A stretch of DNA of 64,000 bases from Oligoflexia bacterium (GTDB taxonomy: Bacteria > Bdellovibrionota > UBA1018): contig JACMNQ010000082.1 of the NCBI GenBank assembly GCA_014378465.1, positions 1-64,000 on the forward strand. Direction: 5' to 3'. The notes beneath the pieces are model-generated. The model did not search any database and was not told the origin of the DNA. It saw only the letters and a list, made by a program, of their open reading frames with translations. The translations under genes were made by a program, and so were the position numbers. This document shows, one piece after another, positions 5,408 to 17,278 of the stretch. How positions within the stretch are numbered: position 1 is the stretch's first letter; each line of letters starts with the position of its first letter.

Positions 5408-6526
5408 CTACTTTCCAGCCGGTACTGCCTGAACCGCTTGAATTTTGGCAACTTCTTCTTTCACCTTCTTGACGAGTTCCGCCGGCAACGGAGCATAAGA
5501 CAGGGGCTGAGCCAGCTTCTGGCCGTCCGTGAGCGCCCAGTCCAGAAATTTCCTGAACTGGGGAGCCTGCGTGGCTTTCATCCGCTGATAGACGAGAAGA
5601 TAAGTGAACGCGGAGATCGGGTAAGAGTCCTTGCCCTGAGCGTCCGTGATGGAAACTCGGAAATCCTTGGGCATGTTGGCGGCTTCCGCAGCCGCTGCCG
5701 CCGAAACGCTGTGGGGCGAGGGAGCGACAAACACCCCTGAACGATTCTTGAGCCGGGCCACGGGCAGATGATTGGTCTCAGCGTAGACGAGCTCCACATA
5801 CCCGAGCCCGCCCGGAGTCTGCTTGATCAGACCGGTGACTCCTTCGTTTCCTTTGCCACCGAGACCCACGGGCCACTTGAGTGCGGTGCCGGCGCCCACT
5901 TTCGATTTCCATTCAGGACTCACTTTGGAAAGGTAGTCCGTGAAGATGGCGGAAGTTCCGCTGCCGTCGGACCGATGCGCTACCATGACGAAGGTGTCCG
6001 GAAGGCTGGCGGCGAGCGAAGGATTCAGGGCCTTGAGCTTCGGATCATTCCACTTCGTGATCTTGCCCAGAAAAAGCTCCGCGAGCACTTCAGAAGAAAG
6101 ACGCAGATCGCCCTTGAAACCTGGCAGATGATAAGTGATGGCCACGGCGCCCAGAACAGTCGGGATGTGCAGAATCGGCAGTTGCGTTTTTGCCATCTGC
6201 TCGGCGGTCATCGGAGCATCGCTGGCCCCGAAATCGATCGTCTTCTCAAGAAGCTGCCGAACTCCTCCCCCGCTTCCGATGGACTGGTAATTGATCTCCA
6301 GGGAAGGATCGACTTTCCGATATTCAGAAAACCATTTTGAATAGAGAGGATAAGGAAACGTGGCACCGGCACCATTGATGGTCTGAACGGCCGCAGCCGC
6401 AACGTTCCCATTCATTCCGAGGGTCGCGACTTGAGAGAGCGTCAAAGCCATCGCACTGACGCACACGCTGGACCGAAGACTGGCCAATCGGGAATATTTC
6501 GATTTCTTCATCTGGATGGGATTCAT
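5408..6526 (-). CDS. pstS: Periplasmic phosphate-binding protein PstS
   Basis: 372 residues with an N-terminal export signal ending near the AAAA stretch at 43-46. The mature protein begins with GAGATFPYPLYSKW, then IGSGGGVRQL and FGASDAPM, and later HRSDGSGTSAIFTDYL. These are the phosphate-contacting segments of PstS. It delivers phosphate to PstCA. A second ATG five codons in (6511) is also possible; neither start has a good ribosome-binding site. It is first in the operon, so the phosphate-starvation promoter should lie at about 6527-6610. I could not find a convincing Pho box there. Confidence 0.94.
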   Translation of the reverse strand: MNPIQMKKSKYSRLASLRSSVCVSAMALTLSQVATLGMNGNVAAAAVQTINGAGATFPYPLYSKWFSEYRKVDPSLEINYQSIGSGGGVRQLLEKTIDFGASDAPMTAEQMAKTQLPILHIPTVLGAVAITYHLPGFKGDLRLSSEVLAELFLGKITKWNDPKLKALNPSLAASLPDTFVMVAHRSDGSGTSAIFTDYLSKVSPEWKSKVGAGTALKWPVGLGGKGNEGVTGLIKQTPGGLGYVELVYAETNHLPVARLKNRSGVFVAPSPHSVSAAAAAEAANMPKDFRVSITDAQGKDSYPISAFTYLLVYQRMKATQAPQFRKFLDWALTDGQKLAQPLSYAPLPAELVKKVKEEVAKIQAVQAVPAGK

Positions 6527-6610
6527 GCTCTGAACCTAGCGCAAGCGCGGCGCACCAGTCTGTCAGGACTTGGTTAGGATTCAAGGACTGGAGATTTGCC
6601 CGGATTTATA

Positions 6611-6638
6611 TTGACGCTTGGGGCTGAACCCCTAAACT
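6611..6638 (+). promoter_or_regulatory. Sigma70-type promoter for the barrel protein; possible leaderless start
   Basis: TTGACG (6611-6616) and TAAACT (6633-6638) are 16 bases apart. A transcript from this promoter would start near 6645, right at the ATG at 6647, so the message would have almost no leader. Confidence 0.5.
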
Positions 6639-6646
6639 AGAAGAAC

Positions 6647-7783
6647 ATGGTTATCCACCGTCACCTCTTCATCGGCCTGATGCCCGCACTGGCAGTTACC
6701 GTGGCCTCCGCGATCACCGGAATCGGAGGATGCGCGATTCGCTCGGCGCAGGCGGACGACGCAGCGCCAGCCGGTCACCAGCCGAACACGGATCAGACCG
6801 CTTTCGTCGTCAAAGAGAAGATTTCCGAACTCGAGTGGACCAACAAGGCGAAAGTCGTTCATCACGCCAAGGCACCGGGCACCGGGACCGGGAATGAGGA
6901 CGACCAATTTGCGGCCGTGCTCTTCGGACGCTACACTCGAAAAGGCTGGACCCTGTCCGTCGACAATCAGATCCTCTCGCTCGACGAAAGCGGAAATTTT
7001 ACCTACGAAACTCCCGTCTCCCGACAGGACATGTCCATCCAGCTGATGGCGATCGGCCCCTTCGGAGAAGTCGAACGCCAGAGCGTGACCTTTCAGTTTT
7101 CAAAATGGAAGAATCAGCGCGACGACGGTACCGGCGCTTTTGCAAAACGTCTTTTCATCACTCCCGGTTTCAGCCTGACCAGCCTGACGCACAAGGAAAC
7201 CAACGTCTCCGATTACAGCACGACCGCGCTCACTGCGAAAGTCTCCGCCAACTACCTGCTCTTTCCCCCACGCTGGGATCTGGGGGTCACGGCCTACCTG
7301 ACTGCGCTGCAGCTGAAAAAACCCTCTCAAGTGACCCTCACCGATTCCGGGGTCAGCACCGCTGATGTTTCCGTGCATTACCTCGGACTCAATCTTCGAC
7401 TGGGCTATATTTTTCCCCAGCTCAAGGACCCCTGGAGACTGGCCCTTTACAGCGGTTTCTACTACACGACGATGCTGGTGAATCCGAAACTCTTCGGCTT
7501 TCAGAACCTGAGTGGACCTCAGCTGTACCCTTCCCTCCGCCGAACCCTCAAGAAAGGCGACGCGGTCGTCGGCTATGTGAAATACTCGCCCGTCTCCAAC
7601 AACTTCGCGCTGCTCAATTTTTCGAACCGCGAAATTGCAGCGGGCGCGGCCTACATCTTTCCACGGAATGCTCAGGGACGCGGCTTTTCGACCTCAGCGG
7701 ATTACTCGAACATTCAATTCGGCATCAACGGAATCAGTGTTTCGACGACCACTCTCAGCCTGGGAGTGGGATACGGGTTCTGA
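6647..7783 (+). CDS. Predicted outer-membrane beta-barrel protein, unknown function
   Basis: 378 residues. A hydrophobic N-terminal segment (residues 6-32) should act as an export signal. Residues 90-135 look like a small beta-sandwich ahead of the barrel. From about 155 onward amphipathic beta-strands rich in aromatic residues alternate, and the chain ends in ...GVGYGF. A terminal Phe is the typical signal for barrel insertion by BamA. I do not recognise the family and cannot tell a pore from a structural barrel. It is transcribed away from pstS. No strong ribosome-binding site precedes the ATG. Confidence 0.72.
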   Translation: MVIHRHLFIGLMPALAVTVASAITGIGGCAIRSAQADDAAPAGHQPNTDQTAFVVKEKISELEWTNKAKVVHHAKAPGTGTGNEDDQFAAVLFGRYTRKGWTLSVDNQILSLDESGNFTYETPVSRQDMSIQLMAIGPFGEVERQSVTFQFSKWKNQRDDGTGAFAKRLFITPGFSLTSLTHKETNVSDYSTTALTAKVSANYLLFPPRWDLGVTAYLTALQLKKPSQVTLTDSGVSTADVSVHYLGLNLRLGYIFPQLKDPWRLALYSGFYYTTMLVNPKLFGFQNLSGPQLYPSLRRTLKKGDAVVGYVKYSPVSNNFALLNFSNREIAAGAAYIFPRNAQGRGFSTSADYSNIQFGINGISVSTTTLSLGVGYGF

Positions 7784-8056: not shown

Positions 8057-8839
8057 TCACTTGCGAGCGCTGACGACGAACTTGTTGTAGAAAAGACTGC
8101 AGCCCGGCTTGTGCATTTCCGCAAGATAGATTTCACAGAAAGACAGCGCGCGGGCTCGAGATCCGAAAATCTCCGAGAACAAGGGCATCGAAAAATTGAA
8201 TCTCTGTTTTGTCTGCTCAATTTCGTCGTGAAGGTCCTGTCCCTGAAAATCGACGATGGTTGAAGTCCAGGTGCAATCCCTGAATCCCCCGTTCACCAGG
8301 ATTCCTGGAATTTTTCGGCCGATGAAGAGATCAAAACGCAGGGCGACTCTCAATTGCTCGAGCATCTGGGCAAGCTCCGGATTCTGATGCCCAAGATTGA
8401 AGACGATCCCATCAAAATCAATGATGCGAATCCTGCCGCCCGGTTTGAGAACTCGCAGGAGTTCGTGAGTCACCGCATTCACATTTTCCAGATGCTCGTA
8501 CACATAGCGAGCGACCACCCAGTCGTAATGATTGTCCGGCCTGGGAATGGCCTCGAGTCTGCTCTCAAAGAACTGAATATCTTGGTGCTTCAGGGCGCAC
8601 GAAAGCTCTCTCGCCTGGTGAACTCGAATCACTGAGCCATCACATGCTTCGATGACGGCTTCTTCACAGCGATCTTTCAAGATTCTGGAAAGCAGACCGG
8701 TCCCGCATCCTGCGTCCAGCAGCCGCATTCCGGGCGCCAGTTGGAGGTTTTCGATCTCTTGTTCAGGAAGATAGTTGCGCAAACGGGACTGTGATTCGAG
8801 ACGCTCAGCTTCAGCACGATTTTCCAGTACATAGCTCAT
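8057..8839 (-). CDS. Class I SAM-dependent methyltransferase
   Basis: 260 residues. Motif I, MRLLDAGCGTGLLSR, lies at about residues 38-52 and binds S-adenosylmethionine. An acidic residue after the second strand (EACDGS) contacts the ribose. The later YDWVVARYVYEHLEN and LLRVLKPGGRIRIIDFD are motifs II and III of small-molecule methyltransferases. The C-terminal third is family-specific and gives no substrate clue. The gene diverges from an alpha/beta hydrolase across a 71-base gap with a 16-base palindrome. Confidence 0.85.
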   Translation of the reverse strand: MSYVLENRAEAERLESQSRLRNYLPEQEIENLQLAPGMRLLDAGCGTGLLSRILKDRCEEAVIEACDGSVIRVHQARELSCALKHQDIQFFESRLEAIPRPDNHYDWVVARYVYEHLENVNAVTHELLRVLKPGGRIRIIDFDGIVFNLGHQNPELAQMLEQLRVALRFDLFIGRKIPGILVNGGFRDCTWTSTIVDFQGQDLHDEIEQTKQRFNFSMPLFSEIFGSRARALSFCEIYLAEMHKPGCSLFYNKFVVSARK

Positions 8840-8852
8840 GGGCTTTCTCTCC

Positions 8853-8868
8853 AGATATCAAGATATCT
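8853..8868. repeat. Palindrome AGATATC-AA-GATATCT between divergent genes
   Basis: Seven-base arms (8853-8859 and 8862-8868) around two bases. It lies 14 bases before the methyltransferase start and 43 bases before the hydrolase start. Placement and symmetry fit an operator for a dimeric regulator serving one or both genes, but no regulator is identified. Confidence 0.4.
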
Positions 8869-8910
8869 TAACGGAGTTCGAAACTTTCGAAAGAGTGTTA
8901 TCTTTGGCCC

Positions 8911-9759
8911 ATGTCTTTGAATTACTTCTTCGTGCACGGCGGCCCAGGACTGAACAGCTCTCCCGAAAAATCGCTCCTCGCTCCCCAGTTCAAGGCTGCG
9001 GGACTTTCATTGAGTTTCTGGGATGAACCCTCTCGAAGTCGAGGCACCCATGAGGTCTTTGAAGGCACGTCCACGGGTCCTGCGAAGTGCGCCTCACCCT
9101 ACCGGGCGTGGGTCCTTTCTCTCGAAAGAGCACTCCTGACGGAGGCTTCGAAAATTCGAGGAAAAATCCACGTCATTTCGCATTCGTTTTCCGCATTGCC
9201 TACCCTCGAAATCGTCAGGCGAAATCCCGATGTCTTCGCATCCCTCACCTTTCTGGCTCCCGCTTCGAGTCTTCTGGATACCTACAAAAATCTCCTGCGA
9301 GTGGCCGCTCGCGATTTCCAGCTGGCCGCTCCCGAAAAATCCGCTCTGCTTGAAAACCTCATTCGAGATACCCGCGCAGTCATGGACGACGCGCTCAAGC
9401 GGGGCCTGGAGCTGGCCTTTCAGGACCCAGCGCTTCTGCCCCAGTATTTCGCTGATCAAACTCGTTTCTCAGAGGCGATGACCGCCTTTCAAGCCCCGGG
9501 CGCCGCGCCTGATTTTGAGTCCCTCTTTTCCGTGCTGGCAGACTTTAAGAACCATGAGACTGAAAATCTGCTGGACTCCCCACTTCCGATACGCACTCGG
9601 GTCCTCTTCGGTGAACTCGATCCTCTCTGCCCCAGTTCAACGGAGCTGGGTCGCTTTCAGAAATGCTTCACGCACCTGACTCATCACATTCTTGCCGGCG
9701 CTTCTCATTACCTGCATCTCGATCAGACTGAAAATTTCATCGCTTTGTTGAAAACCTGA
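8911..9759 (+). CDS. Alpha/beta-fold hydrolase
   Basis: 282 residues without an export signal. It opens with FVHGGPG (residues 7-13), the oxyanion-hole motif of proline-iminopeptidase-like hydrolases. The nucleophile elbow is SHSFS with Ser92. GELDPLCP supplies the likely catalytic Asp and GASHYLHLDQ the His near residue 268. The first elbow residue is Ser instead of the usual Gly. Peptidase, esterase and lactonase are all possible. Confidence 0.82.
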   Translation: MSLNYFFVHGGPGLNSSPEKSLLAPQFKAAGLSLSFWDEPSRSRGTHEVFEGTSTGPAKCASPYRAWVLSLERALLTEASKIRGKIHVISHSFSALPTLEIVRRNPDVFASLTFLAPASSLLDTYKNLLRVAARDFQLAAPEKSALLENLIRDTRAVMDDALKRGLELAFQDPALLPQYFADQTRFSEAMTAFQAPGAAPDFESLFSVLADFKNHETENLLDSPLPIRTRVLFGELDPLCPSSTELGRFQKCFTHLTHHILAGASHYLHLDQTENFIALLKT

Positions 9760-9813
9760 CATCCCCGTTCTTAAGGCACCTGAAGCTCACGCGCGGGCCC
9801 ATGTGAACTTATC

Positions 9814-9842
9814 TTGACGCAACAAGTCATAAATAGTACATT
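9814..9842 (+). promoter_or_regulatory. Sigma70-type promoter of the synthase/dehydrogenase operon
   Basis: TTGACG (9814-9819) and TACATT (9837-9842) are 17 bases apart. They lie in a locally A+T-rich stretch 54 bases before the ATG at 9896. This is one of the better promoter matches in the window. Confidence 0.55.
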
Positions 9843-9895
9843 AGGAATAGAACACTTATTTCTCAGCGGTACGTCATGTGGAGAGGAAGAAGTCT

Positions 9896-10654
9896 ATGGT
9901 TGAATTTTCGCGCCTGCGATTCGTGATCCTGGATTGCCCCTATCTCCTGTCTCAAGACTCACAAGCTCGTGACCTCTTCTCCAGGATGGTGCGTTTGAAG
10001 TATGAAGGGTACTCGGCGCACTACGGTACCGGTTCCCTCCCTCTTGATACGACCGACTTCATCGGGACTCATCACTTGATCTGCGAAGAAAGAGAGGGAG
10101 AGCTTCACCCAGTCCTGGGCTACAAGACCGTTTCCCTGGAGCGATGCCAGCTTTTCAACAATCCGTTTCCAGCGCTGAGTCTCGCAATCACTTCCAAAGC
10201 GACTTCGCACGCTGCAAAAGTGACTGAGATCATTCTGGCATCTGAGGCCAAAAATCGCGGACTTTTCTATGGGGGTGGATGGACGATGGCGCCTCATGCT
10301 CAGGCCGATCGGGAATCGGCCAAGGATCTCAAAGATCGGATGGCAGCCATGCTGACGACTTATCACCTACGAGAAGCCCAGGGAGAAGAGCTGTGCCTGG
10401 GCGTGCTTCGGTTCAAGACCGAACGCTACTTTTCAAAAATCGGTTATGAACCGCTTCGGGACGCCGAGGGCGAAATTCTGCCCACCTTTCACCTGCGCTC
10501 CCTCCTGGGCGAAGAAGTTCAGATGCTTCATTGCAGAAACTTCAGCCTGGAGGCTCGGCAACTGGCAAAAAATCACGAAATTCTCTGGAATCAGAGATTG
10601 CAACTTGCCCCTGCTCAGCTGAACTCCTTCACTCAAACCAGGAAAGTGGCTTGA
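9896..10654 (+). CDS. GNAT-fold FeeM/LuxI-like acyl synthase (putative N-acyl amino acid or autoinducer synthase)
   Basis: 252 residues from the ATG at 9896, which has a GAGAGGAAG ribosome-binding stretch 8 bases upstream; an in-frame GTG at 9878 is less likely. The layout resembles LuxI/FeeM proteins: an aromatic and basic helix (RLKYEGYSAHYG), an acidic pair (LDTTDF), a beta-strand with THHLICEE, and PVLGYKTVSLERC where these enzymes have G-x-RL. A central TEI strand follows, and RYFSKIGYEPL matches the GNAT 'yxklGFe' end motif. Such enzymes join an acyl group from acyl-ACP or acyl-CoA to an amine. Substrate and product are unknown, and identity to known synthases appears low. The next gene, an acyl-CoA dehydrogenase, begins one base after its stop. 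Confidence 0.55.
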   Translation: MVEFSRLRFVILDCPYLLSQDSQARDLFSRMVRLKYEGYSAHYGTGSLPLDTTDFIGTHHLICEEREGELHPVLGYKTVSLERCQLFNNPFPALSLAITSKATSHAAKVTEIILASEAKNRGLFYGGGWTMAPHAQADRESAKDLKDRMAAMLTTYHLREAQGEELCLGVLRFKTERYFSKIGYEPLRDAEGEILPTFHLRSLLGEEVQMLHCRNFSLEARQLAKNHEILWNQRLQLAPAQLNSFTQTRKVA

Positions 10655-10655
10655 T

Positions 10656-11882
10656 ATGACTTCAACACTCCTTTCGTCCATCAGCTCCCCTGATCTCAAA
10701 TCTCTCCGGACTTTCGTCCGGGCAAAGATCATTCCCGCATCCAGGGAACATGACGAGCAGGAAACCTTTCCACTGGAAATATTTCGGATGCTCCACGCTC
10801 AAGGATGGCTGCAGGCCTTTCTCCCCCAGGAGTTTGGCGGAACGCAGGCGACGACCGCCGACATGATCGAGATCATGAGGGAGATCGCGTACGGCTCACC
10901 CGGAATCACCACTTCGATCGCGGCCAATCTCCTCGCTTACGTCCCCATCATTGGGCATGCCCTGCCGGAAATTCGGGAATCAGTCTGCCGAGATTTCCTG
11001 GAACGCTTCTCACTTTCCAGCTTCTGCTTCACTGAACCCGACCACGGGAGCGACGTGCTCCGGATTCATACCACTGCGACACGAACTGAGGACGGCTATG
11101 TGCTCAATGGCAAAAAGTGTTTCGTGACCAACGGCAACTTTGCAGAACGCTTTGTCGTGGTTGCTCGGCTGGTACCGCGCTCAGGCATCGAACTTCACCC
11201 TCGCGAAGCTTTTGCACTATTTCTCGTCTCTGGTGATTCTGCCGGCGTCGCACGTGGGGCCCCCTACCGCAAACTGGGCCACCGCGACTCCAATACCACC
11301 GACATCTTCCTTGACCAGGTCAAAGTACCGCTCAATCACCTCATCGGCAATGAAGGAGAGGGACTGAAAATCGCGTTCGAATCAATTCAAAGGAGCCGGA
11401 CCCTGCTTTCAGCCTCGGCAGTCGGGTTGGCACTGCGGGCCTATGATCTGAGCTGTGATTATGTGAACAGTCGAAGTCTTTATGACAAACTCCTGATGGA
11501 GCAACCCGCCATCCGAAATGCACTCGTCCAGATGCGGACGGACATCGAAGCATCGTGGCAACTCACGAAGGTGGCCGCGGCAAATTGGGATTCAGGCGAT
11601 CGGTCGTTTGCCCCCTCGAGCATGGCAAAACTTTACTGCGGTCAGATGGCAGTGCGAGTGAGCGGACAAGCCCTCGAACTTTTCGGAGGCTGGGGCTACA
11701 CAAGCGAGTTTGCGATCGAGAAGGTCTGCCGCGACGCCAAACTCTATGATCTCGCCGAAGGCCCGACTTTCGTTCAGCAAACCATCCTGGCTCGGGAGCT
11801 TCTCAAGGACTACGACAAAGCCGCACACGCGAAAAAGCCCGACATCAGAACGGCTCCGGTTTCGAGTCGCAAGGCAGCCTGA
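10656..11882 (+). CDS. Acyl-CoA dehydrogenase family protein
   Basis: 408 residues with the full fold: an N-terminal helical domain, FCFTEPDHGSD (about 124-134) and FVTNG (about 164-168) for flavin and substrate contacts, and a C-terminal helical domain with ELFGGWGYTSEF. Glu in LYDLAEGPTFVQQ (near 371) sits at the usual catalytic base position. The enzyme should use FAD to introduce an alpha-beta double bond into an acyl thioester. Because it is coupled to the GNAT synthase, it may prepare the acyl donor or modify the product; that is inference. A role in ordinary fatty acid breakdown is less likely because no other beta-oxidation gene is nearby. Confidence 0.9.
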   Translation: MTSTLLSSISSPDLKSLRTFVRAKIIPASREHDEQETFPLEIFRMLHAQGWLQAFLPQEFGGTQATTADMIEIMREIAYGSPGITTSIAANLLAYVPIIGHALPEIRESVCRDFLERFSLSSFCFTEPDHGSDVLRIHTTATRTEDGYVLNGKKCFVTNGNFAERFVVVARLVPRSGIELHPREAFALFLVSGDSAGVARGAPYRKLGHRDSNTTDIFLDQVKVPLNHLIGNEGEGLKIAFESIQRSRTLLSASAVGLALRAYDLSCDYVNSRSLYDKLLMEQPAIRNALVQMRTDIEASWQLTKVAAANWDSGDRSFAPSSMAKLYCGQMAVRVSGQALELFGGWGYTSEFAIEKVCRDAKLYDLAEGPTFVQQTILARELLKDYDKAAHAKKPDIRTAPVSSRKAA

Positions 11883-11885
11883 CCC

Positions 11886-12848
11886 TCAGGCAGAAGCGAG
11901 ATGCGGTCCTGGTCTGGAAAGACCCGCCCGCCCCTGAAAATCGAAGTGAAATCTGCACACGCCTGCACCGGAATGAACACAGTCGGTCTCAGTCACTTTG
12001 CTGAAAGGGAGTCCGAGGTACCCACTGAGCGATTGGAAGGAGCCGACCTTGGCTGAGCAGACGTGCGTGCTTCCGATGACCTTCTGCATGAGTTCATCCT
12101 GCACTTCCGTACTGGGCCTTGCGGTGACCACACAGTGGTGATCTGAAATTTCCACCAGCTGATAGATGCAGTTCTTGTCAAAATAAGGTGAAATCAGTTC
12201 CGTGAAAACGTGCTCGTGCAACATGCGAGAAGTTCCATAGCTCCTCAGGAGACGTCCGAGCGGAGTCTTTCGATTCGCCACGAAAGAATGCTCACCCATG
12301 GACTTCATAACATCCGTGGAGCAGCCACTTTTCGAAAGGTACTCGCAAAGCTCAGTGACGAAGTTGATGTTGATGGATTGATCCGGGTCCTTGAACAAGG
12401 CTTCACTCATCTGAAAATGACGGAGAATCCGACTGCGAGTACGCCAGCCATGGTTCAGTTCCACATAATCCAGAAGATGAATCGAAGTGCGTCTGCGGCT
12501 GAATGCACCGACTGAAAACCTTGCAGGAAGCGGGTCATGATCACCTTTCTCCCGAGCTGACAATGCGGCATAATCAACATCGCCCCTCATCACCGACTCA
12601 AACGAAAGACCGAAGCGAGCCGCCACTGACTCTACGGTGCGGGCCGCGAGTGGGACTCTTTCAATCAGAAGGCGCAAATACTGTTTCTCAGTCAGGCCAA
12701 GAACCTGAAGCCAGTCGTCGCCGGCAAGCTCCGCTGCCCGGCGAATTCGTTCGAGCGTATCTTCGACAGGCTGAGGAAATCTCGCGGACTTCAGCTGGCC
12801 ATGCGGTTCAGGCGGTAAGTGCACTTCGGAGCTCCTCGGTAATGACAT
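11886..12848 (-). CDS. Regulator-like protein: helix-turn-helix plus V4R-like C-terminal domain (paralogue 1)
   Basis: 320 residues. Residues 30-95 look like an XRE-type helix-turn-helix ending in MRGDVDY. A middle block follows (SRRRTSIHLLDYVELNHGW...RHFQMSEALF), shared with the gene at 13720-14745 and the fragment at 15855-16043. The C-terminal domain ends in ETDCVHSGAGVCRF (about 289-303), like the Cys-x-His...Gly...Cys end of V4R (4-vinyl reductase) domains, which bind small molecules or metals in several bacterial regulators. The start overlaps the preceding gene by 58 bases, so the true start may be later. The gene runs towards the acyl-CoA dehydrogenase. Function as a ligand-responsive regulator is inference. 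Confidence 0.55.
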   Translation of the reverse strand: MSLPRSSEVHLPPEPHGQLKSARFPQPVEDTLERIRRAAELAGDDWLQVLGLTEKQYLRLLIERVPLAARTVESVAARFGLSFESVMRGDVDYAALSAREKGDHDPLPARFSVGAFSRRRTSIHLLDYVELNHGWRTRSRILRHFQMSEALFKDPDQSININFVTELCEYLSKSGCSTDVMKSMGEHSFVANRKTPLGRLLRSYGTSRMLHEHVFTELISPYFDKNCIYQLVEISDHHCVVTARPSTEVQDELMQKVIGSTHVCSAKVGSFQSLSGYLGLPFSKVTETDCVHSGAGVCRFHFDFQGRAGLSRPGPHLASA

Positions 12849-13684
12849 TCAAGTTCTTCAAGTTGTGCGGCATGGGTGGGGCGAACGGAAAGACCCACGA
12901 ACTTTTCAAAATAGCTCTTCTTGTAGCGGCAGAGAAAATCGCCGAGAGTCGAATCGTCCCGGTAGTTGAACTGCGCAAGGTGGGCCTCCGGACGGACGGA
13001 AAAATCAAAGGACCGGGAATCACCGGCCTCGATCACATAATCAAAATTGCACTCATACCCTCTGGCTCCTGAAAGAACTTCAAACAGCAGACTGGAGTCG
13101 TCACGAGCGTCAGAGTAAAGCTGATGAAATTTTCCCTGAGTGCGAGACCGAGTCGCAAGGCTCGTGAGGGCATCGAGACTCTCCGGAGTGAGGTACTGCT
13201 GCTGGATCAGAAGTCGACTGAGATCCATGCAGAACCGGAGATTGACCTGCTGATCCAGATCCACGAAGAAGTCCGGATCAAAAGCCTTGGAAACCAGGTA
13301 CTTTTCAAATTCTTTTGGTCCGAGGTGGAGCTCTGCAAATTCGAGAAAAGGAGCCATGGCTTTGATTTTTGAGCCACGGGCTTCACGGTACTCCTGCGGT
13401 ATGTTGAAATTCAGACCGTAGGTATCATGGTCCAGAGTCGCCATGCCGCCCCGTTCGATCTGTCCCACGAGCAGACTGTCCGTGGAAATGCAGGTCAACT
13501 CACAGAAGTGATACCAATCCGTGGCGGTAGGAGCTGCAACTGCAGTCTCCAGGTCCGAAACATAGGATACCGTCAGACCCAGCTCCCGGGCGACATCTCG
13601 TTTCGACAGCCCCAGACCCTTGCGCGCCGATCTCAAGACTTTCGCTGCTTTGAGGTCTGAAAGGGTTGTGCCGTTCGAATTCAT
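12791..13684 (-). CDS. XRE-type regulator with diverged V4R-like C-terminal domain (paralogue 2)
   Basis: 297 residues from the ATG at 13684, which has AGGA at a usable distance; an in-frame ATG at 13696 has none. The clearest helix-turn-helix of the three: RSARKGLGLSKRDVARELGL then SYVSDLET (about residues 19-48). The middle part aligns loosely with the other two paralogues. The C terminus reads ELECHYRGAPKCTYRL, keeping both cysteines and the glycine but in a shortened form. Its stop lies inside the start of paralogue 1, so the pair is translationally linked. Role proposed: DNA-binding regulator with a ligand-sensing tail. Confidence 0.6.
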   Translation of the reverse strand: MNSNGTTLSDLKAAKVLRSARKGLGLSKRDVARELGLTVSYVSDLETAVAAPTATDWYHFCELTCISTDSLLVGQIERGGMATLDHDTYGLNFNIPQEYREARGSKIKAMAPFLEFAELHLGPKEFEKYLVSKAFDPDFFVDLDQQVNLRFCMDLSRLLIQQQYLTPESLDALTSLATRSRTQGKFHQLYSDARDDSSLLFEVLSGARGYECNFDYVIEAGDSRSFDFSVRPEAHLAQFNYRDDSTLGDFLCRYKKSYFEKFVGLSVRPTHAAQLEELECHYRGAPKCTYRLNRMAS

Positions 13685-13719
13685 CACTGTTCTCATCCTA
13701 CCGAAGTTAACGCGTCACC

Positions 13720-14745
13720 TTACTCTTCTGTACCTGAGCGCAGCAGTAAAGTAAAGTTCCCAGAATTCGGTTTGGAATCAGAATGACCGGGATTTGAAGT
13801 ACTTGCCGAACGTTTTACCGAGCGTGATCGGGGTTCTGCGCCACCGGCCCCTGAACCGAAATGGAGAGTATAGTCGCAGGAAGCCCCGCCGTGAGCGATG
13901 CAGTTCGTCTCCTCAACTCTCGCAGACGGGAAACCTGCGAACCAGGGAAAGGCGGAAAGAGCGCCCATCCGGATTGAACAGAGAACCTGACTTTTCAGGA
14001 CTTCTTCTCCCACTGCATCGATCGCATCTGGCCGTGGACGACACTTGATCTGACAGCTGGATGGACCCAGTTCCGAGAGACTCCAGTCAAAGTTCTTCTC
14101 GAAATGAAGACCAATCACTTCCGTGACCATCTTTTCGAACAGTTCGCGCGGACTCCCGAGCGTTCGCAGCCCTGCCACGAACGGAGCTTTGCGATGAGTC
14201 CACATCACATGCCTCCCCATGCTGGAGAGAAGCTGCGAATCGCGGGACTGCCGGAAGATATGATGGCCCACATCTGACACAAACTTCACACTGATCATTT
14301 CCTGTGGGGCAGCCAAGGCCTTCTCAGTCATCTGAAATCGCTGAAGCGTGAGCGCTCGTTTTTGCCAGCCGAACTGCTGCTCAATGAAATCAAGAACCCC
14401 CAGGGCGACGCTTCGTCGACTGAGCGCGCCTTGAAGGTAACGCTCAGGAATCGCTGAAGAGACTCCCTGGTGCTGAAGCACCAGCGCATGATAGTCAATC
14501 TGACCCGTGAAGAGCTCGTCGAATCCGATGTTGAGGCGTTTGGCCAGTTGGACGGCCCCTGAGGCAGGAGGACTGAGATTGCATTTCCGGAGATGAAAAA
14601 GTTGGGAGGAGTGAAGTGCCAACACTTCACAGACCTCCGAATCAGGCATTCCGAGAACCAGCTGAATCCTGTGAATCACTTTCCAAAAATGCTCGTTCAG
14701 TTCAGTTTCGTGCAATTCGGCTCCCTGCGTGAACTCATACATCAA
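13720..14745 (-). CDS. Regulator-like protein: helix-turn-helix plus V4R-like C-terminal domain (paralogue 3)
   Basis: 341 residues. N-terminal helices (about 20-85) resemble an XRE-type domain ending in FTGQIDYHAL. The shared middle block follows: ALSRRSVALGVLDFIEQQFGW and LQRFQMTEKAL. The V4R-like end is EETNCIAHGGASCDYTLHF (about 271-289). A further 50 residues, rich in Ser, Arg and Gly, form a low-complexity tail that the other copies lack. It is upstream of paralogue 2 with a 35-base gap, so the three likely form one transcript. Target genes and ligand are unknown. Confidence 0.58.
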   Translation of the reverse strand: MMYEFTQGAELHETELNEHFWKVIHRIQLVLGMPDSEVCEVLALHSSQLFHLRKCNLSPPASGAVQLAKRLNIGFDELFTGQIDYHALVLQHQGVSSAIPERYLQGALSRRSVALGVLDFIEQQFGWQKRALTLQRFQMTEKALAAPQEMISVKFVSDVGHHIFRQSRDSQLLSSMGRHVMWTHRKAPFVAGLRTLGSPRELFEKMVTEVIGLHFEKNFDWSLSELGPSSCQIKCRPRPDAIDAVGEEVLKSQVLCSIRMGALSAFPWFAGFPSARVEETNCIAHGGASCDYTLHFGSGAGGAEPRSRSVKRSASTSNPGHSDSKPNSGNFTLLLRSGTEE

Positions 14746-14957
14746 CTTTGGTCATCCGCTAGACAAATGCAGACATTTCTCGCTCATACGCGGGTTCGTC
14801 AGGGTCAAAAGCTCCCACCTCGCGAAGGCGAATATCAACTATTTCAGTTGACGACCTCGTTCGACGGCTGATAACCGCTCAAAAAGTCCCGCACGCGGTG
14901 ATCAATCCCCCCCTCCAAGCTGGACTCGAGGTCTGACATGCCGCCTGAGCGAACAGC

Positions 14958-15728
14958 TTGCCGAAACTCTCGCATCAAACGATGGACTATCTGGTCAAAG
15001 ACGCCGTGGCCGCACTTGAAGTGATCGATTTGCGCTTTCCGGGCAGAAAGCTCGGCCTGATTGGCCACAGCGAAGGTGCCCTGGTCTCACTTCGAGTCGC
15101 GGCCCTCCGATCGGGCACTGCTCCTCTGGACGCGCTCTTTCTCCTGGCTCCGCCAACTCAGGACTTTGACGAGGTCCTGAAGTACCAGTTTCACGACTAT
15201 CCACTACGATTTTTGCGCGAAAAATATGATCAGAACCGCGACGGACTTCTGTCCGGCGACGAAACATCCGCTCTGAACGAAACAGGCCTCCCTGCCTTGA
15301 GTATTCTCGGGGTAAACTGGAGGAGCCTGGATCAGGATCAGGACGGTGCACTCTCCCTCGAAACTGACCTCGTCCCTGCGTATGCGGCCGGCTTGCTCCA
15401 GATCAAGGAACTCGTGAACACCACGATGAAGCCCTGGTACGATTCCATCAAAGCCCTGCCCGACTTTCCTGAGTTGGCTCAGGCCGTGAAGAATACGCCC
15501 GTCCATGATTATCAGGGCTTGAAAGATCCTCAGGTCGACGGCGCGCTGGCACCTGCCGCTTCCAATAATTTTCGTAATCTGAAGGCACTTCGCCTTTTTC
15601 CGGAATACGGTCACGGCTTCGCTCCCCTCGAAGGAGTGCACGGAGAAGTGAAGACGAGCGGCCGATTTCAAGACACCGTTCTGAAACAACTTGTTCAGGA
15701 TCTCGCCGACTCGTTCAGACCAGTCTGA
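14958..15728 (+). pseudogene. N-terminally truncated alpha/beta hydrolase with EF-hand-like loops
   Basis: The open frame begins at a TTG 12 bases after an in-frame stop (14946-14948). It encodes the nucleophile elbow GHSEG (36-40) only 36 residues from the start, so about 100 residues of hydrolase fold are missing. GHGF near 221 supplies the likely catalytic His. Between them sits an insert with a canonical EF-hand loop DQNRDGLLSGDE (91-102) and a second, weaker loop DQDQDGALSLET (125-136). No ribosome-binding site is evident. It is a 5'-deleted gene, or the head lies in another frame that I could not recognise. Confidence 0.6.
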
Positions 15729-15854: not shown

Positions 15855-16043
15855 TCAGATATCCAAGGCAAACCTGCCGCTGATGGGAGCATCTGGATCC
15901 TTGAATATGGCTTCGGTCACCTGAAGCCGGCGAAGCATGAGCGCACGTTTTTGCGGGCCGAACCTGGCTTCAATCCCGAGGCAGTTCTGAATCAGGTCAA
16001 GCGTGTCCCGGAACCGGTGATCCTGAGAAGTTGGACGGGTCAT
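15855..16043 (-). pseudogene. Fragment of a fourth V4R-type regulator paralogue
   Basis: 62 codons. The stretch FRDTLDLIQNCLGIEARFG, then QKRALMLRRLQVTEAIFKDP, aligns with the shared middle block of paralogues 1 and 3 (for example LTLQRFQMTEKAL and RHFQMSEALFKDP). The helix-turn-helix and the Cys-rich end are missing. The frame starts with ATGA overlapping the stop of the DisA_N-like gene, so it may still be translated as a short peptide. Confidence 0.6.
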
Positions 16044-17278
16044 AGAAAATCGAGTCGATGCACATCTGACTGAGTCAGGTGGGGCGTCGTGAAAAACAGG
16101 CTCACCTGTCCGTCCGCACTGATTTTGAAGGCCGTCGCTCCATTTTTAGCCGCTGAATAGGCGGCGGCATCGCGCATTCCAAAAGCGTTCACAGCCGAGG
16201 AATGAGAAATGATCATGGAGCCGAGTTGCACCAGATTGCCCTGAAGATCGAGAATGAGGGCGCCATCGACTGAAGAGAGTTCCACGAGCTTTCGAACTTC
16301 CGGAATCGAATACTCCAGTCCATTGAAGGGCGAATGCGTGAAGATCGAATTCAGCGGCGAAGCTTCCGCACGTGCGATGCCCTTGACGACATAGGCGTTC
16401 AGGTTCTCCGCCCTGTCGAGCACGATCAGGCCTCCCTGCCTCTTCACACCCATGTCAAAGATGATCTGAAAAAGGCTGCAGGCGACGCAGGTCGGATCTT
16501 CGGGCGCTTTGTTCTCCCCGATCTGGCGACTGAGGATTTCAGCGATGGAAAGAATGATGCTGTCCCGGTCATAGATCGTCCAGGCCGCGCCTCGACGTTT
16601 GGACGCGAGCATCCCATCTTTCCCGGCGATCATGAAAGAGCCATTGGCCGTCATGTGAAAGACGATCGAATCCGGATTTTTCAGGGTGCTGATCACGGGA
16701 TGCAGCAGATCCGGATAGAAGCGATACCCTTGCACGTCCTTCACTTCAGGCTGTGATACGGACTCGAGCGCTTTGATCCCGAGCTTCTGGTCGACCCGAA
16801 AATAAGTGTAAGGCGTGCTGGCGAGCCAGTCGAACACCTTGAAATAGACTGGATCTGAAAGCGTCGCCGGCTGCTGAAGAGTCGGCCCGGGCTCCAGCAC
16901 GAGAGTTTTCGGAATGAGCTGGTTTTCGGTGGTTCGCAGGCTGAGGCGTCTGAAGTAATCCAGGACCAGGTTCCAGGAAGTGATCTGGGTTCTCGATTCA
17001 AGCCAGGCCACCGCGAACTTCTGCTGAACCCACTCTCGGCCGAGAATTTCAGGGATCGAAGTGCCCGTGAAGGGCCGGACTTCATCGCAGATGGAAACGG
17101 CACGCCTGAGGTAAGCTTCAAGCTCCGGGGACAGCGGGACCGTTGAATGAAAGCGCGACTTTTCGCCCGCGACTTCGAGGTCCACGGCCACCGTGCCCGA
17201 TCGCGCCTGATAAAGCTGCGGGAGCGTGTCGAAGATCAGTCGGTTGACGGAACCGGGATCAGCAGTGGCATCTTTCAT
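16040..17278 (-). CDS. Protein with diverged DisA_N (diadenylate cyclase-like) C-terminal domain
   Basis: 412 residues, no export signal. Residues 1-290 are of unrecognised type, with a CVAC pair near 265. The last 90 residues resemble a diadenylate cyclase (DisA_N) domain: SSVDGALILD with DGA at 338-340, then FGMRDAAAYSAAKNGATAF (366-384) where active enzymes have GTRHRAA, and KISADGQVSLF where they have VSEETGxIS. DGA is kept, but the RHR phosphate-binding signature is changed to M-R-D. It may bind a nucleotide without making c-di-AMP, or use another substrate. The gene starts 16 bases after the exported protein upstream. Confidence 0.55.
   Translation of the reverse strand: MKDATADPGSVNRLIFDTLPQLYQARSGTVAVDLEVAGEKSRFHSTVPLSPELEAYLRRAVSICDEVRPFTGTSIPEILGREWVQQKFAVAWLESRTQITSWNLVLDYFRRLSLRTTENQLIPKTLVLEPGPTLQQPATLSDPVYFKVFDWLASTPYTYFRVDQKLGIKALESVSQPEVKDVQGYRFYPDLLHPVISTLKNPDSIVFHMTANGSFMIAGKDGMLASKRRGAAWTIYDRDSIILSIAEILSRQIGENKAPEDPTCVACSLFQIIFDMGVKRQGGLIVLDRAENLNAYVVKGIARAEASPLNSIFTHSPFNGLEYSIPEVRKLVELSSVDGALILDLQGNLVQLGSMIISHSSAVNAFGMRDAAAYSAAKNGATAFKISADGQVSLFFTTPHLTQSDVHRLDFL

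Follow-up and report, generated by a model that had tools for sequence, protein, structure and literature searches.

A LuxI/FeeM-shaped predicted acyltransferase and HTH–V4R regulators form a putative acyl-signal module in Bdellovibrionota

Bdellovibrionota, the predatory bacteria and their relatives, carry a conserved gene module that pairs an enzyme predicted to have a LuxI/FeeM-like fold with helix-turn-helix (HTH) regulators whose sensor domain resembles the zinc-containing phenol sensors, and which looks like a chemical-signalling system with a receptor type not known for acyl signals. The module was examined in a window of 64,000 nucleotides from an Oligoflexia bacterium (GenBank assembly GCA_014378465.1, contig JACMNQ010000082.1, positions 1 to 64,000), where the original prediction had placed a LuxI/FeeM-like synthase, an acyl-CoA dehydrogenase and three V4R-type regulators at 9896–14745. 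The open reading frames behind that observation are confirmed: a 252-residue putative synthase (9896–10654, plus strand) is followed after one base by the acyl-CoA dehydrogenase (10656–11882, plus strand), and three minus-strand regulators, V4R_a (11886–12848), V4R_b (12791–13696) and V4R_c (13720–14745, with an ATG start at 14742), converge on them, with 3 bases between the stops of the dehydrogenase and V4R_a. V4R_a and V4R_b overlap by 58 bases and V4R_c lies 23 bases upstream, consistent with one operon. These boundaries are, however, too narrow: a SAM-dependent methyltransferase (MT; 8057–8839, minus strand; Pfam Methyltransf_11, 2.8e-17) and an alpha/beta-hydrolase (ABH1; 8911–9759, plus strand; Abhydrolase_6, 5.9e-8) recur with the synthase in relatives, and a second hydrolase (ABH2; 14958–15728, plus strand) extends the module to 8057–15728.

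The synthase has no match in Pfam or NCBIfam at E<=1, and neither phmmer nor a credible profile match links it to any protein in the PDB; a single-protein scan of genome contigs also found no relatives. In contrast, an AlphaFold model based on 13 aligned sequences is confident (pLDDT 92, pTM 0.89), and its best Foldseek matches in the PDB are the CoA-dependent acyl-homoserine lactone (AHL) synthase BjaI (PDB 5w8g/5w8a; 8.6e-6, probability 1.00) and the N-acyl amino acid synthase FeeM (2g0b_B; 1.1e-5, TMt 0.59), with LasI, EsaI, RpaI and MesI further down. Ordinary acetyltransferases (ElaA, 3efa, 1xeb) are also returned with similar, slightly weaker scores, so that fold alone does not settle the substrate. 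The Q/R-x-x-G-x-G/A acetyl-CoA loop of classic GNATs is nevertheless absent from the motif region of 76 of 76 family members, as is the E-x-x-R of LuxI (E101/R104, strand beta5) from the equivalent region. D54 (76/76), K/R77 (76/76) and K/R35 (75 of 75 aligned) are invariant, and H59 (71/76) and D51 (66/76) nearly so; K/R35, D51, D54 and K/R77 look equivalent to the R24/D45/D48/R70 constellation of LuxI enzymes, a resemblance judged without superposed coordinates.

By sequence, the protein belongs to neither family. None of 13 members hits the LuxI profile PF00765 at E<=1; a PF00765 search of 20 relatives found nothing, although its control genomes gave no hit either, and the 4 of 291 weak hits over cut-off in the phylum lie at other loci. 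Only 1 of 13 members has a weak, below-cut-off match to the FeeM profile PF21926 (E 0.006), profile-profile comparison with FeeM relatives gives nothing, and the family locus is not among the PF21926 hits of genomes in which true FeeM homologues exist as separate, longer proteins. The only profile-profile similarity is with an alignment of OlsB-like N-acyltransferases (hhalign 56%, E 1.2e-4, over 76 columns), which aligns D51-x-x-D54 with their D-x-x-D. Compared with BjaI, the protein shares D-x-x-D and basic residues in its N-terminal half and the arrangement of a small synthase beside its regulator, but it is only about 10% identical, has extra helices at 92–118, and is accompanied by a regulator that is not LuxR and by an extra putative capping enzyme. 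With FeeM it shares the acyl-amine synthase layout, but V4R regulators, MT and ThiF are not known to be part of FeeM clusters.

The regulators belong to one family, as V4R_b aligns with the V4R_a/c profile (hhalign 99.9%, 2.8e-35). V4R_b contains an XRE-type HTH recognized by Pfam (HTH_31, 1.3e-8), and the family alignment matches HTH structures at its N-terminus (best 1e-4). V4R_a has a sub-threshold match to the V4R profile PF02830 (E 0.011; 16.2 bits against a cut-off of 31) and V4R_c has none, whereas 11 of 16 family members match it (best 7e-6). The V4R_a model (pLDDT 87) matches H-NOX domains, the phenol sensors PoxR and MopR, and TRAPP, that is, the V4R superfamily. Because no alignment column contains His in 8 or more of 16 receptors, haem sensing of the H-NOX kind was rejected as unlikely; instead, 15 of 16 V4R_a/c receptors keep three cysteines (C264-x25-C290-x7-C298 in V4R_a; signature at 256 in V4R_c) at the spacing of the zinc ligands Cys151, Cys177 and Cys185 of DmpR (PMC7264223), whereas the cysteines are only partly kept in V4R_b, a divergent second subtype that recurs at synthase loci. 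Relative to DmpR, MopR and PoxR, an XRE-like HTH at the N-terminus replaces the AAA+ sigma54 module, and the genomic partner is a putative acyl synthase rather than aromatic catabolism. None of the window regulators has a Pfam match to the LuxR/GerE HTH plus autoinducer-binding domain; while a synthase gene adjacent to a one-component transcription factor inferred to sense its product recalls LuxI/LuxR quorum sensing, neither protein belongs to the LuxI or LuxR family, the receptor comes from another superfamily and the synthase is only fold-related.

The synthase family occurs in 14 of the 58 nearest relatives and in 85 of 369 Bdellovibrionota genomes, and a search with a Bdellovibrionaceae-centred alignment returned four records (Bdellovibrionaceae, Bdellovibrio sp., Bdellovibrionia and Bacteriovorax sp.); no viral contigs were found. 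When 74 neighbourhoods were mapped together with the window, a V4R-family gene was found within 6 kb of the synthase in 67 of 75 loci across at least 6 families, usually immediately next door and tail-to-tail. Of the eight other loci, three (L027, L079 and L113) are near contig ends, and five (L085, L102, L116, L117 and L119) have the synthase without a V4R gene. Among the 58 nearest genomes, strong V4R_a/c homologues (E<1e-40) occur in 13 of 14 synthase-positive genomes but in only 1 of 44 negative ones. The trees of synthase and V4R_a/c correlate (r 0.79 overall; 0.70 within family f9, with 0 of 2000 permutations; 0.40 within family f1, not significant with 267 of 2000), and although this is not corrected for the species tree, the spread over many families and several gene orders makes hitchhiking unlikely. 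Lack of co-occurrence had been set in advance as grounds for abandoning the proposal, and the module passes this test.

All-against-all clustering of neighbouring genes shows that the other constant partners are an MT, a ThiF/E1-like protein (Pfam ThiF, 7e-34; relatives MoeB, ThiF, MccB, TcdA and PaaA) and alpha/beta-hydrolases, with ABH1 homologues in the neighbourhood of 26 loci. MT and ThiF are alternatives: 34 loci have MT only, 30 ThiF only, 1 both and 10 neither (Fisher p 3e-11, not corrected for phylogeny). On the synthase tree the label switches at least 7 times, against 16–25 for shuffled labels, so the exclusivity is not one ancient split. ThiF/MccB/TcdA enzymes adenylate carboxylates and methyltransferases can esterify them, although the MT is not specific to carboxylates by sequence, its weak match being to the LahSB methyltransferase (6uak, 1.2e-6). 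The simplest common substrate would be the free carboxylate of an N-acyl amino acid, and the effect of either enzyme would be to remove its charge, as the lactone ring does in AHLs. Two of the loci without V4R, L117 and L119, have a haem-oxygenase-like enzyme, perhaps a third chemistry, and L113 shares the gene cluster. The acyl-CoA dehydrogenase (Acyl-CoA_dh_1, 9.9e-31) is MCAD-like (5.9e-65), with a Glu aligned with the catalytic-region Glu of MCAD, but lies beside the synthase in only 3 of 75 loci (the window, L018, where it is 49% identical, and L100); oxidation of a medium-chain acyl-CoA before transfer is therefore plausible in this lineage only.

The explanation judged best, and somewhat more likely than not, is a self-contained chemical-signalling module. 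In this view, the LuxI/FeeM-fold enzyme would join an acyl group, probably from acyl-CoA and here first oxidized by the dehydrogenase, to an amino acid or similar amine; the free carboxylate would then be capped by the MT (methyl ester) or, in other genomes, by the ThiF/E1-like enzyme (lactone, cyclic or amide form), giving a neutral, membrane-permeable molecule. HTH–V4R one-component regulators would bind it in a zinc-stabilized pocket and control transcription, probably including that of their own cluster, and alpha/beta-hydrolases would turn the signal over. What the analysis establishes is gene content, predicted folds, motif and neighbourhood conservation and the near-exclusivity of MT and ThiF; the acyl donor, the amine and other substrates, the condensation reaction and its product, carboxyl capping, ligand identity and binding, proteolysis, and signalling itself, including any diffusible or density-dependent action, are inferred. 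The original interpretation, that the enzymes make an unsaturated acyl-amine sensed by a receptor type other than LuxR, is thus partly supported: the LuxI/FeeM-like fold, the V4R-type receptors and the co-occurrence hold, but the conserved enzymatic partners are MT or ThiF plus hydrolases rather than the dehydrogenase, and "unsaturated" is at best a local variant. For the MT variant the predicted product class is that of NAME, an AHL-like neutral N-acyl amino acid ester; NAME synthase genes are reported as unknown, and no homology is claimed.

A broader reading, possible but slightly less likely than not, is a phylum-wide quorum-sensing class in which a third lineage of LuxI-fold synthase makes carboxyl-capped N-acyl amino acids in interchangeable chemotypes (methyl ester, ThiF-activated, haem-oxygenase-like-modified) sensed by zinc-containing HTH–V4R receptors unrelated to LuxR. 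Predator density and development are obvious things to sense, yet searches of open-access literature found no report of a synthase–receptor signalling pair in Bdellovibrionota, and nothing relevant on V4R combined with quorum sensing or on Bdellovibrio signal synthases; the genome paper of another predator, Micavibrio, reports LuxI/LuxR genes (PMC3189940), but we found in it no system of the present kind. A conserved synthase–receptor–capping-enzyme unit gives direct genes to test in cultured predators, and would add a receptor superfamily for acyl signals and two or three new signal chemistries.

Tree correlation and adjacency could also reflect an operon for lipid or natural-product synthesis with local feedback control. 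The strongest alternative, though unlikely, is an aminolipid or surfactant pathway, in which the enzyme makes a bulk N-acyl amino acid membrane lipid or surfactant and the V4R regulators are a homeostatic sensor of its acyl precursor, rather than receptors of a cell-to-cell signal. The OlsB-like profile similarity, the hydrophobic ligands of V4R/TRAPP folds and the presence of hydrolases are in line with this; on the other hand, bulk lipid operons rarely carry two or three paralogous one-component regulators per synthase, and swaps of the putative capping enzymes and a degron-like tail on the synthase (see below) fit a low-abundance regulatory molecule better. Less likely still is a small natural-product cluster making an antibiotic-like N-acyl amino acid derivative, with pathway-specific V4R regulators that sense the product or prey or host compounds: FeeM-type enzymes were found through antibacterial N-acyl tyrosines, and ThiF/MccB-like and haem-oxygenase-like enzymes are typical tailoring enzymes, but no dedicated exporter or resistance gene recurs among the most frequent neighbours, and the minimal conserved unit is synthase plus regulator plus one capping enzyme. 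An ordinary small-molecule N-acetyltransferase (for example one detoxifying an aromatic amine) controlled by aromatic-sensing V4R regulators is very unlikely, despite the GNATs among the Foldseek hits and the sensing of phenols by the V4R sensors of DmpR, MopR and PoxR, given the missing acetyl-CoA motif, the best matches to acyl-signal synthases, and MT/ThiF partners and, here, a dehydrogenase that point to longer acyl groups. A defence reading was dropped, as PADLOC gave only a generic HTH (V4R_b) and E1-E2 (ThiF) resemblance.

Histidine kinases near many loci are presumed to reflect a large paralogous family. Upstream of the synthase, a pattern scan gave one promoter-like site (TTGACG-17-TACATT; 9814–9842, plus strand) against 1.9 expected by chance, so that it is weak, and no inverted-repeat operator was found. 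ABH2 is 38–41% identical to hydrolases at the synthase loci L020, L023 and L025 but lacks the N-terminus of these relatives (342–429 residues, with the match starting at residue ~100–180), and its upstream frame has stops. Finally, the window synthase and dehydrogenase end in -KVA and -KAA, respectively, and across the family the synthases end in -AA in 38 of 66 cases and in -xA in 57 of 66, against 12 and 56 of 703 background open reading frames in the same loci; this is the form of an ssrA-like ClpXP degron, and suggests by inference that the synthase may be short-lived.

The synthase family ends in -AA (38/66) or -xA (57/66), against 1.7% and 8% of background ORFs, respectively, as seen at positions 10646-10651 of the window and across the synthase loci L016-L120; this ending, which is also enriched in ACAD (2/3), ThiF (13/31 xA) and V4R_b (15/37 xA), looks like an ssrA-like degron. 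True FeeM-family proteins (PF21926) occur at other loci in relatives (L121, L122, L123 and L124); several of these are 420-570 aa long with a C-terminal extension, and three also end in -KAA/-KVA.

Beside the synthase, the methyltransferase is replaced by a ThiF/E1-like adenylating enzyme at positions 6123-7025 of synthase locus L107 and in 29 further ThiF-only loci; the two enzymes are almost mutually exclusive. Some synthase loci without V4R carry a haem-oxygenase-like enzyme (L117, 7952-8614; L119, 7355-8110; L113, 8061-8735; PF14518, tested in L117 and L119), together with a conserved protein of ~250 aa without any Pfam match.

Within the window, ABH2 (region 14746-15728) lacks about 100-180 N-terminal residues that its relatives have and its upstream frame has stops, suggesting a truncated or decaying gene. 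Next to the module, a 412-aa protein (16040-17278) has a sub-threshold DisA/diadenylate cyclase match (PF02457, E 2.5e-5) at its C-terminus. Finally, a fourth V4R-family regulator of the same genome lies away from the synthase (G000, contig C44, 4242-5099) and is an orphan receptor candidate.
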